Shown here in pieces: positions 29,728 through 33,038 of a DNA stretch of 64,000 nt. This DNA comes from Hellea sp. GTDB lineage: Bacteria > Pseudomonadota > Alphaproteobacteria > Caulobacterales > Maricaulaceae. A model generated the notes under the pieces. The model did no database searches and was not told the origin of the DNA. It saw only the letters and a list, made by a program, of their open reading frames with translations. The stretch lies in NCBI GenBank assembly GCA_013002305.1, contig JABDKG010000025.1:1-64000 (forward strand). The letters run 5' to 3'. Position numbers and translations under genes: made by a program. The first letter of the stretch is position 1, and each line of letters opens with the position of its first letter.

Positions 29728-30714
29728 CTACTTTTTTAGGCCATGCTTACGCAGAAGTCCGCGAAAGGAATGATAGGTAAGGCCTAAATATTCCGATGCT
29801 TTGCCTTGATGGTGATTGTGAGCCTGCATGGCTTCATTGATCAGGCTGCGTTCGAATTTGAGAATGCGTTCAGTGAAGTTTTTGGCGGCAGGTGCGGATT
29901 CTAAATCCTCCATTGCCCGATCTGGTAATTCCGCGTTTGGCTCCTTTTGCCGAAAAGCCCGGACAAAAGGATTGAAGATAATGTTGGAAATCGGCTGGGT
30001 TAGCGTTTCGTCGGACAGAAAGGCCCGCGCGGTGCTGCGCTCTATAACATGGCGGAGCTCGCGCATATTGCCCGGCCAATCATAATCCATGAGCGCTTCG
30101 AGGGCTTCAGCGGTCAGGCCGGGAAATTGCTCTGCGCCTAATATTGACGCTGTTTTACGGCCAAAATGAAGCATGAGCGGCGCAATATCGGCCTTTCGGT
30201 CCCGAAGCGGCGGAATATTGACAACGTCGGTCGAAAGGCGGTCCAGAAAAGTAGATAGCTGTTCGCGGCGTTCTGACTTTGCAATCACAGAAGGGTCAGC
30301 ACTAATTATATAGCGAATATCCACTGTTTGGCTGTCCTGATCATCTGACGGGCGAAAATCTCCATATTCGACCAAACGCGCCAGGCGCTCGAGCATGGGT
30401 ATGGACAAATGCTCTATATTGTCAAAAAACAGCGTTCCGCCATCTGCGCGGTCGAGCAGGGCAGTGCGGTCATCATCTCCATATATATAAGAGATTAGAT
30501 CTTCCTCGCTATATGCCGCGCAATTAATACCGAAATAGCTCTGTTCCCATCGCGGGGAGAGAAAATGCAGCCGTGATGCGATTTGAGCCTTGCCTGTCCC
30601 GGCCTCGCCTAGGACCAAAATAGGAAGATCGACACTGGCAATATCAGATACCCAGTCGAGTAAAGCGTGGAATTCAGCGGAATCGCCGACGAGTTGTGGT
30701 GGAATATTAGCCAT
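29728..30714 (-). CDS. pspF: PspF-like AAA+ regulator lacking the GAFTGA loop
   Basis: The 328-aa protein aligns end to end with PspF, the enhancer-binding activator of phage-shock genes. Walker A is GEAGTGKAQIASRLH (residues 36-50). The arginine-finger region is STFLDRLSTDVVNIPPLRDR. It has DYDWPGNMRELRHVIERS and a C-terminal HTH with the PspF ending GLTYHSFRGLLRKHGLKK. But where PspF has GHEAGAFTGAQKRHPGRFER, this protein has only GDDDRTALLDR (79-89), a 9-residue loss that removes the sigma-54 contact loop. Walker B is FFDNI (96-100), with the glutamate of DE replaced. It is divergent from the psp operon and may act as a DNA-binding regulator without sigma-54 remodelling. Confidence 0.88.
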   Translation of the reverse strand: MANIPPQLVGDSAEFHALLDWVSDIASVDLPILVLGEAGTGKAQIASRLHFLSPRWEQSYFGINCAAYSEEDLISYIYGDDDRTALLDRADGGTLFFDNIEHLSIPMLERLARLVEYGDFRPSDDQDSQTVDIRYIISADPSVIAKSERREQLSTFLDRLSTDVVNIPPLRDRKADIAPLMLHFGRKTASILGAEQFPGLTAEALEALMDYDWPGNMRELRHVIERSTARAFLSDETLTQPISNIIFNPFVRAFRQKEPNAELPDRAMEDLESAPAAKNFTERILKFERSLINEAMQAHNHHQGKASEYLGLTYHSFRGLLRKHGLKK

Positions 30715-30718
30715 AACT

Positions 30719-30747
30719 AGTTAAATAAACCAAATATAGTTAGTCAA
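30719..30747 (-). promoter_or_regulatory. Predicted pspF promoter, possibly leaderless
   Basis: On the minus strand TTGACT (30742-30747), a 17-bp spacer and TTAACT (30719-30724) end only 4 bp before the pspF ATG (30714). No ribosome-binding site precedes that ATG. Together these suggest a leaderless transcript. Confidence 0.4.
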
Positions 30748-30836
30748 CAAGAGAAATAATTGGTGAAAAAAACTAAATCAAATTTGTCATATTTGCCTAA
30801 ATGGCGAAAAAGGTAATGAAATCAATACTTTAAAAA

Positions 30837-30853
30837 TTATCGACTCTCGATAA
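30837..30853. promoter_or_regulatory. Palindrome upstream of psp operon, candidate operator
   Basis: TTATCGA-CTC-TCGATAA has perfect 7-bp arms. It lies 87 bp upstream of the first small psp ORF, in the pspF-psp intergenic region. It could bind the PspF-like protein or another dimeric regulator. Confidence 0.45.
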
Positions 30854-30939
30854 CAAAATGGCCATATTGAATTTGTCGCTGGTCATCGGGATCAGAGACA
30901 AAGCCAAATAGGCTAACGAGAGACAACACAAGGAGAGAG

Positions 30940-31113
30940 ATGATGACCTTTCGTACTTTTGAAATAGACGCGGGTCACATTGCCAGCCCATCCGGGACAC
31001 CGGCGCTGACTGAAGATGTGACCGCACCGGTTCGACATGTTCGCAGCCGTCGGCGAGCACTCGCCCTCAGAAGCCGCTCAGGCGGCACTCGCATCGCCGG
31101 CTTCGGTTTTTAA
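30940..31113 (+). CDS. Small basic protein (57 aa) opening the psp operon
   Basis: The frame from ATG 30940 reads MMTFRTFEIDAGHIASPSGT and continues to a TAA at 31111-31113. It is preceded by AAGGAGAGAG, an excellent ribosome-binding site. The C-terminal half is strikingly arginine-rich (VRHVRSRRRALALRSRSGG) and ends AGFGF. There is no signal peptide or membrane segment. I recognise no family. Its place as first gene of the operon that continues with pspA suggests a role in envelope stress or its regulation, which is an inference from position only. It is also possible that it serves as a leader peptide. Confidence 0.65.
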   Translation: MMTFRTFEIDAGHIASPSGTPALTEDVTAPVRHVRSRRRALALRSRSGGTRIAGFGF

Positions 31114-31127
31114 TCGGGGTCCGGACG

Positions 31128-31307
31128 ATGAGTAGACGTTATAGAGATGATTGGGACCGCACATTCGAAGACGAATATGCGGCCCAGAGCCGCGGCGACG
31201 ATTGGAGCACAAAAGGTGCCCGCTTTGTTCGCTACCTTTCAACCCGAAAGATTGAATGTTGGGGCTTTTTCGCCGCCGGCTTCTTTATTTCAAAGATTTT
31301 TTTCTAG
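31128..31307 (+). CDS. Small membrane protein (59 aa) in the psp operon
   Basis: ATG 31128 starts 14 bp after the previous stop, with GGGG about 10 nt upstream, and the frame ends at 31307, 21 bp before pspA. The N-terminal 40 residues are charged (MSRRYRDDWDRTFEDEYAAQ), and the C-terminus is one hydrophobic helix (CWGFFAAGFFISKIFF). This layout is a tail-anchored inner-membrane protein. It is not PspD or PspG by sequence. Position between pspF and pspA suggests it could be a membrane sensor or a PspA partner; that is an inference. Confidence 0.7.
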   Translation: MSRRYRDDWDRTFEDEYAAQSRGDDWSTKGARFVRYLSTRKIECWGFFAAGFFISKIFF

Positions 31308-31328: not shown

Positions 31329-32018
31329 ATGGGAATATTTTCACGCATGGGCGATATCATAAATTCCAACCTCAACGCCATGATTGACAAGGCCGAGAAC
31401 CCGGAGAAGATCGCACGCCTGATCATTCAGGAAATGGAAGATACGCTGGTTGAAGTCCGGACGGACGCCGCCCGCAATATCGCCGAACGCAAAGAGCTAA
31501 GCCGGAAGGTCGAAGCCTACACTACTAAAGCCAATGAATGGGCCGAAAAAGCAGAATTGGCGATTAATAAGGATCGCGAAGATTTAGCCCGCGGAGCCTT
31601 GCAGGCTAAACAGCAATCTGAAGCTATGGCCGAAGTTGTTGAACGCGAAATCGAAATTCTTGACGAAGCCGTCGCAAAGGCCGACGCTGACCTGGGCAAG
31701 CTGCAAAGCAAACTCGATGAAGCTCGCGCCAAGCATAAGTCTCTGATGATGCGCACAAATGTCGCTCAAAATCAGATCAAGATGCGCACCAAAATGACGG
31801 ATTATCGTGTTGAAGACGCTCTGGCTCGCTATGAGCGGATGGAACGTAAAGTCGACCGCCTGGAAGCTGAAGTCGAAGCCTTCGACCTTGGCAGTGGCGA
31901 AAGCCTGGAAAGCCAGTTCGCGCAAATGGAAGCCGATGAGGCTATCGAAGGTGAACTCGCTGCTTTAAAGGCCAGCCTTGGCAAAGCCGCGAAGCCCGCT
32001 AAAAAGAAAGCCAACTAG
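31329..32018 (+). CDS. pspA: Phage shock protein A
   Basis: The 229-aa ESCRT-III-like protein binds stressed inner membrane and, in known systems, inhibits PspF. It starts with an amphipathic helix (MGIFSRMGDIINSNLNAMID) and continues as a long charged coiled coil typical of PspA/IM30 (PEKIARLIIQEMEDTLVEVR, MMRTNVAQNQIKMRTKMTDY). The C-terminus ends in a Lys/Ala tail (KPAKKKAN). ATG 31329 follows AAAAGGAGATACATA. The WEWRE-type sequence of PspF that contacts PspA in E. coli is not obvious in the local PspF, so the PspA-PspF interaction may differ here. Confidence 0.95.
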   Translation: MGIFSRMGDIINSNLNAMIDKAENPEKIARLIIQEMEDTLVEVRTDAARNIAERKELSRKVEAYTTKANEWAEKAELAINKDREDLARGALQAKQQSEAMAEVVEREIEILDEAVAKADADLGKLQSKLDEARAKHKSLMMRTNVAQNQIKMRTKMTDYRVEDALARYERMERKVDRLEAEVEAFDLGSGESLESQFAQMEADEAIEGELAALKASLGKAAKPAKKKAN

Positions 32019-32080: not shown

Positions 32081-32329
32081 ATGGATGTAGAGATTTTAGC
32101 CCTATCAATACCAATCGTCGCCATCGTCGGCGGCATCTCAGCCGGAATGTTGAAATCATATTTCAGCCATAAGGAACGGATGATGTCCCATATGAGCGAG
32201 GATCAGGTCGCAGAGCTGGACCAAATGTCCCGCAGAGCTGATATTTTAGACAAGCGTCTGAATGTGCTGGAGCGCATTTTGGACGACGAAGTCCCCAACT
32301 GGAGAGAGACCCATGACAAGACGATATAA
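32081..32329 (+). CDS. pspB: Phage shock protein B
   Basis: The 82-aa protein has a single N-terminal membrane helix (ILALSIPIVAIVGGISAGML) and a cytoplasmic coiled coil (SEDQVAELDQMSRRADILDK, RLNVLERILDDEVPNW), matching the PspB family closely in length and layout. With PspC it senses inner-membrane stress and recruits PspA. ATG 32081 follows GAGAGAGAG. Its last 17 bp overlap the start of pspC, so the two are translationally coupled. Confidence 0.9.
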   Translation: MDVEILALSIPIVAIVGGISAGMLKSYFSHKERMMSHMSEDQVAELDQMSRRADILDKRLNVLERILDDEVPNWRETHDKTI

Positions 32330-32804
32330 AAATCCTGTTCATCGTAGCCTTCATGATGCGAACTGGGATGGCAGTGACGATGGATATGAATATTCTGGAC
32401 CGCACCGCCTTCGCCGCAACAAAATAGATGGTGTACTCGGCGGCGTTTGTGCCGGCCTTGGTGACTATCTCGGAATGGATCCCGTAATCGTTCGCGTGAT
32501 CTTTGTCCTGTTGCTGATTTTTACCGGACTGCCCATCATTATCTATCCGATATTATGGTTATGCATTCCGTCAGATAAGCGCGCCCCCTATCGCCGGGAG
32601 TACCGCGAAAGTCGCCGGGCAAGACATAAAGCCCGTCGCCGCTACCGCGAAGACTCCGAGCCGGTCAAGCCGATCCGGACTGCGACTTTCCGGGATACAA
32701 AATCCAAATTTCGGTCACTTGAAGAGCGGATGCAGGATCTGGAACGGTCCGTAACATCCAAAGAATGGCGCCTGCGCCGCGAATTTCGGGACCTGGAAAG
32801 CTAG
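32313..32804 (+). CDS. pspC: Phage shock protein C (PspC domain protein)
   Basis: The 163-aa protein has a PspC domain at about residues 33-90 (NKIDGVLGGVCAGLGDYLGM, DPVIVRVIFVLLLIFTGLPI) with one or two membrane spans, preceded by a polar N-terminus and followed by a very basic stretch (YRREYRESRRARHKARRRYR) and a short coiled coil (SLEERMQDLERSVTSKEW). ATG 32313 overlaps pspB and has GGAGAGAGACCC in front. An upstream in-frame start at 32262 would lie deep inside pspB and lacks a site. It is a membrane stress sensor with PspB by family knowledge. Confidence 0.9.
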   Translation: MTRRYKNPVHRSLHDANWDGSDDGYEYSGPHRLRRNKIDGVLGGVCAGLGDYLGMDPVIVRVIFVLLLIFTGLPIIIYPILWLCIPSDKRAPYRREYRESRRARHKARRRYREDSEPVKPIRTATFRDTKSKFRSLEERMQDLERSVTSKEWRLRREFRDLES

Positions 32805-32828: not shown

Positions 32829-33038
32829 ATGATCAAATCTACGCTTATTATATTAGCCAGTGCGGGTGTGATCGGGACTGGCAGCCACGCCGTCGGGCCC
32901 CAGGCGTTTGAAATCTCCGCCGGAAATGTTGCCTACCATATTTCCGCGGATGGTGTCGAAACCATCGCCTCGGAAGCCCCACAGTTTGGTGTCTCGTTCA
33001 TCACCAAAGGTGACAGACGCATAACGTTTAGATTTTAA
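32829..33038 (+). CDS. Small exported protein at the end of the psp operon
   Basis: The 69-aa product begins with a signal peptide (MIKSTLIILASAGVIGTGSH, A-V-G). The mature part is about 48 residues with a beta-type composition (FEISAGNVAYHISADGVETI, GVSFITKGDRRITFRF). ATG 32829 follows GAGGAGAAAGACG and lies 24 bp after pspC, so it is the last gene of the stress operon, before a terminator hairpin. No family recognised. A periplasmic role linked to envelope stress is inferred from position. Confidence 0.75.
   Translation: MIKSTLIILASAGVIGTGSHAVGPQAFEISAGNVAYHISADGVETIASEAPQFGVSFITKGDRRITFRF

Follow-up and report, generated by a model that had tools for sequence, protein, structure and literature searches.

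A 64,000-nucleotide stretch of Hellea sp. DNA (contig JABDKG010000025.1, positions 1 to 64,000; hereafter the window) includes a pspA gene preceded by two short open reading frames, ORF1 and ORF2. Are these frames genes, and what would their products contribute to the Psp membrane-stress response? A sequence-only reading had proposed that they are small genes of a stress operon and that the second could encode a membrane sensor or PspA anchor.

Small genes of the psp locus

In the window, pspF (29728–30714, minus strand) diverges from ORF1 (30940–31113), ORF2 (31128–31307), pspA (31329–32018), pspB (32081–32329), pspC (32313–32804) and ORF3 (32829–33038), all on the plus strand. The locus thus has pspA-pspB-pspC in a row together with a divergent pspF, by which a Psp operon was recognised. 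The three psp genes were assigned by matches to TIGR02977 (pspA, E 7.1e-82, above cut-off), PF06667 (pspB, E 8.1e-12) and PF04024 (pspC, E 1.8e-21), the last two above the Pfam cut-offs. The start of pspC at 32313 was read by eye and overlaps the end of pspB. Strong synonymous conservation in the last pspB codons (32297–32329; same-codon fraction up to 0.86) is expected because of this overlap. The pspF product has an AAA+ domain and a Fis-type HTH, as indicated by Pfam and NCBIfam matches, alignment and a structural model, and scores 263.9 bits against an NCBIfam PspF cut-off of 443.55 bits.

ORF1 (57 aa) and ORF2 (59 aa) are present as described earlier, separated from one another by 14 bp and from pspA by 21 bp. 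Ribosome-binding sites had been claimed for both. ORF1 is preceded by AAGGAG at 30930–30935, but no clear Shine-Dalgarno sequence was read by eye ahead of ORF2. The ORF1 product is indeed basic (9 K+R versus 4 D+E, pI 11.9), and the C-terminal part of ORF2 is hydrophobic, its most hydrophobic 17 residues being 42–58. The view that neither is PspD, PspE or PspG was upheld, as searches of Pfam and NCBIfam with the two window ORFs gave nothing above chance. The same result was obtained in Pfam for 19 relatives of ORF1 and 23 of ORF2, and in NCBIfam for the relatives of ORF2. The best match for ORF2, a weak one to the RES domain (E 0.047), came from only one of its 23 relatives and was set aside. 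The possibility that the stretch encodes a known RNA instead of small genes was also rejected, there being no Rfam match up to E 1.

A pspA gene was found in 9 of the 10 genomes of the genus, the exception (G005) being 84% complete. Beside pspA, both small frames are open in 9/9 congeners and their lengths vary by whole codons. Unconserved frames and frame-breaking indels, named earlier as evidence that would count against the two genes, were looked for in the relatives and not found. The nine congeners gave pN below pS in 36/36 pairs for each gene compared, ORF1 and ORF2 included; mean pN/pS values were 0.40 for ORF1, 0.33 for ORF2, 0.45 for ORF3, 0.14 for pspA and 0.22 for pspB. In three other genera pN was below pS for ORF1 in 10/10, 45/45 and 78/78 pairs (pN/pS 0.34, 0.40 and 0.60), and in four other genera for ORF2 in 15/15, 45/45, 66/66 and 78/78 pairs (0.24, 0.22, 0.24 and 0.43). 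No match to either profile was obtained in 61 upstream regions shuffled once each; shuffles here and in the promoter, leader, PspF-site and IHF tests below kept base composition only, and the wider ORF1 and ORF2 profiles were built partly from loci then searched. Chance ORFs are ruled out by the open frames, pN below pS, the shuffle controls and the other genera, and by these measures ORF1 and ORF2 are genes under purifying selection.

ORF3, which had been said to close the operon, does so and is a real gene, although of narrower range. Its 69-aa product has a hydrophobic N-terminus and a conserved C-terminus (TIRF), and the gene lies downstream of pspA in 20/137 genomes of the window's GTDB family. 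Among these 20 are G107 and G108, both of which have intact sigma54 control.

Linkage and range of ORF2 and ORF1

Within the family, pspA occurs in 74/137 genomes, and ORF2 is present in 71 of these 74 and in none of the 63 without pspA. All but one of the 74 ORF2 places lie 23–107 bp upstream of pspA on the same strand; the exception, G134 C108, is a second copy that came with no reported pspA match. The pspA-bearing genomes with no ORF2 match are G013, G057 and G102. The pspA gene of G057 is cut by a contig end, and in G013 and G102, which lack both ORFs, a sigma54 promoter is located 73 and 97 bp, respectively, from pspA. In sigma54-type relatives of the family, the promoter precedes the small ORFs. 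Two genomes, G043 and G117, have two pspA copies each, with ORF2 at every copy. These genomes carry two psp loci (L110, L111, L136 and L137), and one of the G043 loci has no adjacent pspF yet retains ORF1-ORF2-pspA.

A profile search of the order matched ORF2 in 132/398 genomes; counted by hand, 41 of these belong to the window's family, 89 to a single other family and 1 each to two more. At 20/20 loci fetched from the other families, which were hand-picked from the order match list, pspA is directly downstream; the ORF of G375 was confirmed separately. The class-wide search gave ORF2 in 12/385 genomes at 13 places. At 10 of the 11 class loci examined besides the window (G137, which is of the order, and 9/10 from other orders) pspA adjoins the match, the second ORF2 place in G780 being outside these 11. 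The group is not purely Hyphomonadaceae, the family named in the earlier suggestion: NCBI places Hellea in Maricaulales, Robiginitomaculaceae, and the ORF2 family extends past Hyphomonadaceae. Two cultured relatives, Hellea balneolensis DSM 19091 (L053) and Litorimonas cladophorae KCTC 23968 (L059), share the layout of the window locus.

PspA was found in 42/385 genomes of the class. Inspection by eye of 29 pspA loci from the class search (one of them, G137, of the order) showed 15 with a small ORF whose C-terminal end is hydrophobic and 14 with no such ORF. This ORF falls between the best sigma54-like site and pspA; the distance from that site to pspA is at least 189 bp in the 15 loci with the ORF and at most 100 bp in the 14 without, the two properties not being independent because the ORF listing was anchored on the best sigma54-like site scoring at least 14. 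Several of the 15 ORFs are too divergent to be called homologues. About half of the alphaproteobacterial pspA loci inspected outside the order (L204–L232) have a tail-anchored-looking ORF, and some of these (for example L217 and L219) show no clear similarity to ORF2.

ORF2 relatives share the core R-x-x-E-x-W-x-F-F-x-A-G. A model calculated from 30 sequences includes helices at residues 4–38 and 42–58, with moderate confidence (pLDDT 71). ORF2 is a new family of small proteins predicted to be tail-anchored.

ORF1 has a smaller range. In other genera it starts mostly with a single Met (MTFRT or MTYRT), and therefore the second ATG of the window ORF, at 30943, is the likelier start, giving 56 aa. 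The genus profile detected ORF1 in 36/137 family genomes, with 37 of 38 places 171–277 bp upstream of pspA. With the wider profile, ORF1 was found at 39 of the 40 family loci that lack a sigma54 promoter and at 4 of the 21 that have one; a weak match in G130 at another place (E 0.003) was discounted. Among 249 genomes of the order, 16 gave strong matches, each with a best E of 5e-13 or lower, and every one of them is of the window's family. The matches outside that family were seven in number, weak (E 1.3e-4 to 9.6e-4) and away from psp loci; they were taken as chance since five are on contigs other than that of the ORF2 match and two are in genomes with no listed ORF2 match. All loci with ORF1 fall into a single clade of the PspA tree (45 rows, support 99). 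Of the five sigma54-type loci in this clade, four have ORF1. It is therefore probable that ORF1 is older than the promoter switch and arose before the loss of sigma54 control. At locus L105 (G027), ORF1 was not found and the intergenic region is shortened, with ORF2 and a loop-less PspF retained; hence ORF1 looks dispensable in at least one genome.

The beginning of ORF1 is conserved also at the nucleotide level. In codons 1–14 (30939–30981, plus strand), the same codon was used in 289/357 (0.81) of same-residue comparisons within the genus, as compared with a mean of 0.50 and a maximum of 0.60 in pspA windows. The consensus fold of the nine congeners places the ORF1 start codon inside a predicted hairpin with arms ATGATGACC and GGTCACATT. 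This hairpin appears in 6/9 individual minimum-energy folds; its arms are identical in 8/9 congeners and therefore show no covariation. The conserved C-terminal end of ORF1, RSRRR...GFGF/I, is far from these constrained codons. The predicted 5' leader (30875–30939, plus strand, its start inferred from the -10 element described below) may form hairpins at 30875–30899 and 30902–30914. Features of a leader peptide or attenuator were looked for and not found: the leader has no terminator-like site, no Rfam family matches in the window, and the start-codon hairpin shows no covariation. Leaders of 43 loci are more structured than their base-composition shuffles, with a mean z of -1.7 and 23/43 below -1.5. 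Hairpins precede ORF1 in many relatives and have unrelated sequences, such as GCTGAGG...CCTCAGC in g7 and GGCCCTGGC...GCCAGGGCC in g17.

Taken by sequence range, the small genes of the locus represent one new wide-range protein family (ORF2) and two narrower ones (ORF1 and ORF3).

Regulator and promoter of the operon

The Y51-L52-W56 patch of E. coli PspF is reported to bind PspA (PMC3791423), and E108 to provide the glutamate in the switch E108-N64 (PMC4132715). The alignment of E. coli PspF with the window protein runs along the AAA+ domain with a gap at GAFTGA, and N99 (in DN) occupies the position of the Walker B glutamate E108. The patch in PspF of the window type reads F51-L52-W56. The AlphaFold model of the window protein has a pLDDT of 88, and its ten best PDB matches are PspF AAA+ domains with a target TM of about 0.9.

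An alignment of 58 PspF sequences was made from the window and 57 family loci, G042 and G135 being truncated there and G043b having none. In 39/58, GAFTGA is absent, the gap varying in length, and N, H, S, A, G or D stands in place of the Walker B glutamate; both are intact in the remaining 19, so that the two features go together in 58/58. Outside the family, 18/20 loci of the order retain the loop (17 as GAFTGA and 1 as GSFTGA) and the other two have no pspF within the stretch examined, while GAFTGA or a one-letter variant is present in 29/29 loci of the class search. The changed PspF proteins retain the Walker A Lys and W56 in 39/39 and a strongly conserved HTH, and their pN/pS of 0.21–0.31 (four genera) resembles that of intact PspF (0.20 and 0.33, two genera). 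For these reasons PspF is not decaying, and its interpretation as a pseudogene was rejected. Loss of rpoN as the cause of the switch was rejected too, as the RpoN DNA-binding domain is still encoded in 8/10 genomes of the genus, the window's included.

The -24/-12 promoter was searched for between pspF and pspA with a weighted score (maximum 16.2). Of 76 pspA places in the family, 61 were used (60 fetched and the window) and 15 were left out. G135, in which the frame is truncated and another fragment shows GAFTGA, and G042, in which pspF is cut at a contig end and only GHEAG is visible, were counted as having GAFTGA; G043b, with no adjacent pspF, was counted among the 40 without. The score was at least 15.2 at 21/21 loci with GAFTGA (19/19 when G135 and G042 are omitted) and at most 13.5 at the 40 others. 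The best site in the window scored 11.7, which is unexceptional among shuffles (p 0.43). At the 20 order loci outside the family best scores were 13.5–16.2, and 8/20 read TGGCACG-N4-TTGAA. The best site of G010 (13.5, shuffle p 0.06) has GG and GC in place and could, from its sequence, be a relic sigma54 promoter.

The window locus has the AAA+ fold, PspA-binding patch, Fis-type HTH and synteny of PspF, and it lacks GAFTGA, the Walker B glutamate and a -24/-12 promoter. By the features tested, it is a Psp system by descent whose PspF is not a sigma54 activator. Both this rebuilt regulator and promoter and the breadth of ORF2 were missed by the first reading from sequence alone.

The upstream region nevertheless retains putative elements of PspF control. 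The PspF-site dyad of E. coli K-12 is TTAGTGTAATTCGCTAA, and the pattern searched was TTAGT-N7-ACTAA. Two predicted dyads occur in the window exactly 43 bp apart, CTAGT-N7-ACCAA at 30717–30733 (2 mismatches) and TTGGT-N7-ACTAA at 30760–30776 (1 mismatch). Dyads with at most one mismatch were found at 35/40 loci without GAFTGA (6.2 by shuffling), and pairs 41–45 bp apart at 21/40 (0.13 by shuffling), so that 19/40 miss the pair. At loci with GAFTGA the corresponding numbers are 8/21 (shuffle 3.0) and 5/21 (shuffle 0.0). An IHF-like site, AATCAATACTTTA (30820–30832, plus strand), has 0 mismatches to the consensus WATCAANNNNTTR; perfect matches to this consensus occur at 17/40 loci without GAFTGA (shuffle 0.55) and at 2/21 with it (shuffle 0.25).

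Just past the IHF-like site, at the position of -24/-12 in sigma54-type relatives, there is a -35/-10-like pair, TCGACT (30840–30845) and CATATT (30863–30868), on the plus strand with a 17 bp spacer. These elements were predicted by a promoter pattern search; the hexamers are weak as sigma70 elements (8/12 to consensus, counted by hand), and a generic sigma70 scan of the window did not report them. A loose form of the pattern was found at 31/40 loci without GAFTGA and 3/21 with it, and a strict form, [TG][CT]GAC[AT]-N15-18-[CG]AT[ACT][ACT]T behind an IHF-like element, at 27/40 versus 0/21 (0.04 by shuffling), missing 13/40 loci without GAFTGA; this contrast is descriptive only, because both patterns were written after viewing these loci. 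Half-sites CGACA and TGTCG, about three helical turns apart, surround the predicted promoter at many loci in several genera. In the window (30840–30878), the first reads CGACT and the second is within TTTGTCG at 30872–30878. They are a possible operator of another regulator, or of PspF.

Quick trees were used to place the change of regulator. On the PspA tree the loop must have changed state three times, with two of the changes forced by starred branches, and a PspF tree calculated without the loop and Walker B columns needs three, all forced. The loop is present wherever it is readable outside the family, and hence the changes are read as losses. One affected some members of g16, another some members of g17, and the third the ancestor shared by g1, g2, g3, g5, g7 and g11. 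A single origin of PspF without GAFTGA was rejected (AU p 0.016, for a group named after viewing the data). Horizontal transfer instead of repeated loss is less likely.

Proposed roles and meaning

ORF1 and ORF2 would be the first two genes of the psp operon, with products made together with PspA. ORF2 is predicted to be a single-pass C-tail-anchored inner-membrane protein with a variable charged cytoplasmic part, then a basic helix, RFxRYLSTRK, and a short membrane helix, ECWGFFAAGFxIxxIF. It probably anchors PspA at the membrane or informs it, in the manner of small Psp membrane partners elsewhere, which fits the predicted topology, the near-obligate linkage and the finding that in G043 and G117 each of the two pspA copies has its ORF2. 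The product of ORF1 would be small, basic and soluble, and the first codons of the gene may serve in addition to control expression at the RNA level. A sigma70-type promoter would, in this lineage, have replaced the sigma54 promoter in place. PspF without the loop and catalytic glutamate still has its DNA-binding domain, the paired upstream sites and the PspA patch; it would stimulate, or less likely repress, the new promoter via an IHF-bent upstream region, and PspA would still act on PspF as feedback. This whole account, of a PspA-partner ORF2, an RNA-element ORF1 and a switch from sigma54 to a sigma70-type promoter under PspF and PspA, is regarded as reasonably probable; the functions in it are inferred, and the sequences, linkage, conservation and selection are observed.

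ORF2 may serve the membrane with no contact to PspA. It is conceivable, if rather doubtful, that it is a small membrane effector in its own right, with a role like that of PspG, which shares the operon but is no partner of PspA. Such independence would agree with the 14/29 class-level pspA loci at which no such ORF was seen by eye and with the loss of ORF2 at the G013 and G102 loci, but ORF2 was never found without pspA among the 137 family genomes, and every pspA duplicate in G043 and G117 retains its own copy. A comparably doubtful possibility is that ORF1 is chiefly a translated leader, the translation and start hairpin of which determine how strongly ORF2 and pspA are expressed, with little function left to the peptide. 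Being the first ORF of the operon, 14 bp ahead of ORF2, it is suitably placed, and the same-codon fraction of codons 1–14 exceeds every pspA window and the start codon lies in a consensus hairpin with near-invariant arms. However, pN was below pS in all pairs of the genus and the other genera, the conserved C-terminal end is distant from the constrained codons, the hairpin is seen in only two-thirds of the single folds with no covariation in its arms, and G027 retains ORF2-pspA without ORF1.

For the regulator, retention of the HTH and PspA patch in the absence of the catalytic and sigma54-contact parts would suit also a repressor or decoy, whose DNA binding lowers the promoter until PspA removes PspF. 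A precedent is NtrC of Caulobacter, which has no GAFTGA and is reported both to activate and to repress genes (PMC10274813). The conserved sites of the window are, however, about 65–125 bp upstream of the predicted -35 element, an activator-like place, and repression is considered unlikely. That PspF and its promoter are simply decaying, with a constitutive operon, would explain the joint loss of the loop, glutamate and sigma54 promoter, but is most improbable given pN/pS like that of intact PspF and the retained HTH, W56 and paired sites. The reading preferred here is a PspF that stimulates a sigma70-type promoter.

The locus resembles the enterobacterial Psp system (pspF || pspABCDE, pspG) in the divergent pspF, the pspA-pspB-pspC order, the W56 patch, and a PspF-site dyad and IHF-like site ahead of the promoter. 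It differs in the small genes added to the operon, two ahead of pspA and a third behind pspC, and in lacking a sigma54 promoter, GAFTGA and any match to PspD, PspE or PspG. PspD, PspG, LiaI and others are small Psp membrane partners. Like them, ORF2 is a small membrane protein encoded with a PspA-family protein, but it does not match the Pfam/NCBIfam models of PspD and PspG, and it has a tail anchor with the R-x-x-E-x-W-x-FF-x-AG core. Loss of the L1 loop is known from other enhancer-binding proteins without GAFTGA (NtrC of Caulobacter and Rhodobacter capsulatus, and VpsR), for which regulation of sigma70 promoters, in the case of NtrC action at such promoters in both organisms, is reported (PMC10274813). 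In the present case the protein is PspF, its likely controller is PspA, and the loss is recurrent in one family, where the cognate promoter and the Walker B glutamate are lost with it. For some Alphaproteobacteria, a 2024 survey by Ravi describes, in the text available, variants of PspF and replacements by toastrack proteins; it gives PspD for Gammaproteobacteria only, and that text has no mention of small ORFs before pspA or of loop loss (PMC11237479). The words GAFTGA and alphaproteobacteria were not found in the available text of the 2022 survey by Popp (PMC9239133). Among the matches listed in an open-access literature search, nothing was found on ORF1 or ORF2, or on PspF without GAFTGA.

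A broader history is offered tentatively, as quite possible though short of probable. ORF2 would be an overlooked old alphaproteobacterial partner of PspA; a marine lineage would have gained ORF1 and then left sigma54 about three times, PspF each time losing the loop and glutamate and a sigma70-type promoter arising, with the PspF sites and PspA feedback kept. ORF1 may have enabled the switch.

PspA is the bacterial relative of ESCRT-III, and there is no settled account of its recruitment to damaged membrane. With a small membrane partner that is linked to it almost without exception, this recruitment could be approached directly. Close relatives that have the same operon with and without sigma54 form a natural series, in which a change of promoter class can be followed step by step. 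In this group it is wrong to annotate PspF as an activator of sigma54 promoters, and the findings point to new parts of a well-known membrane-stress response.
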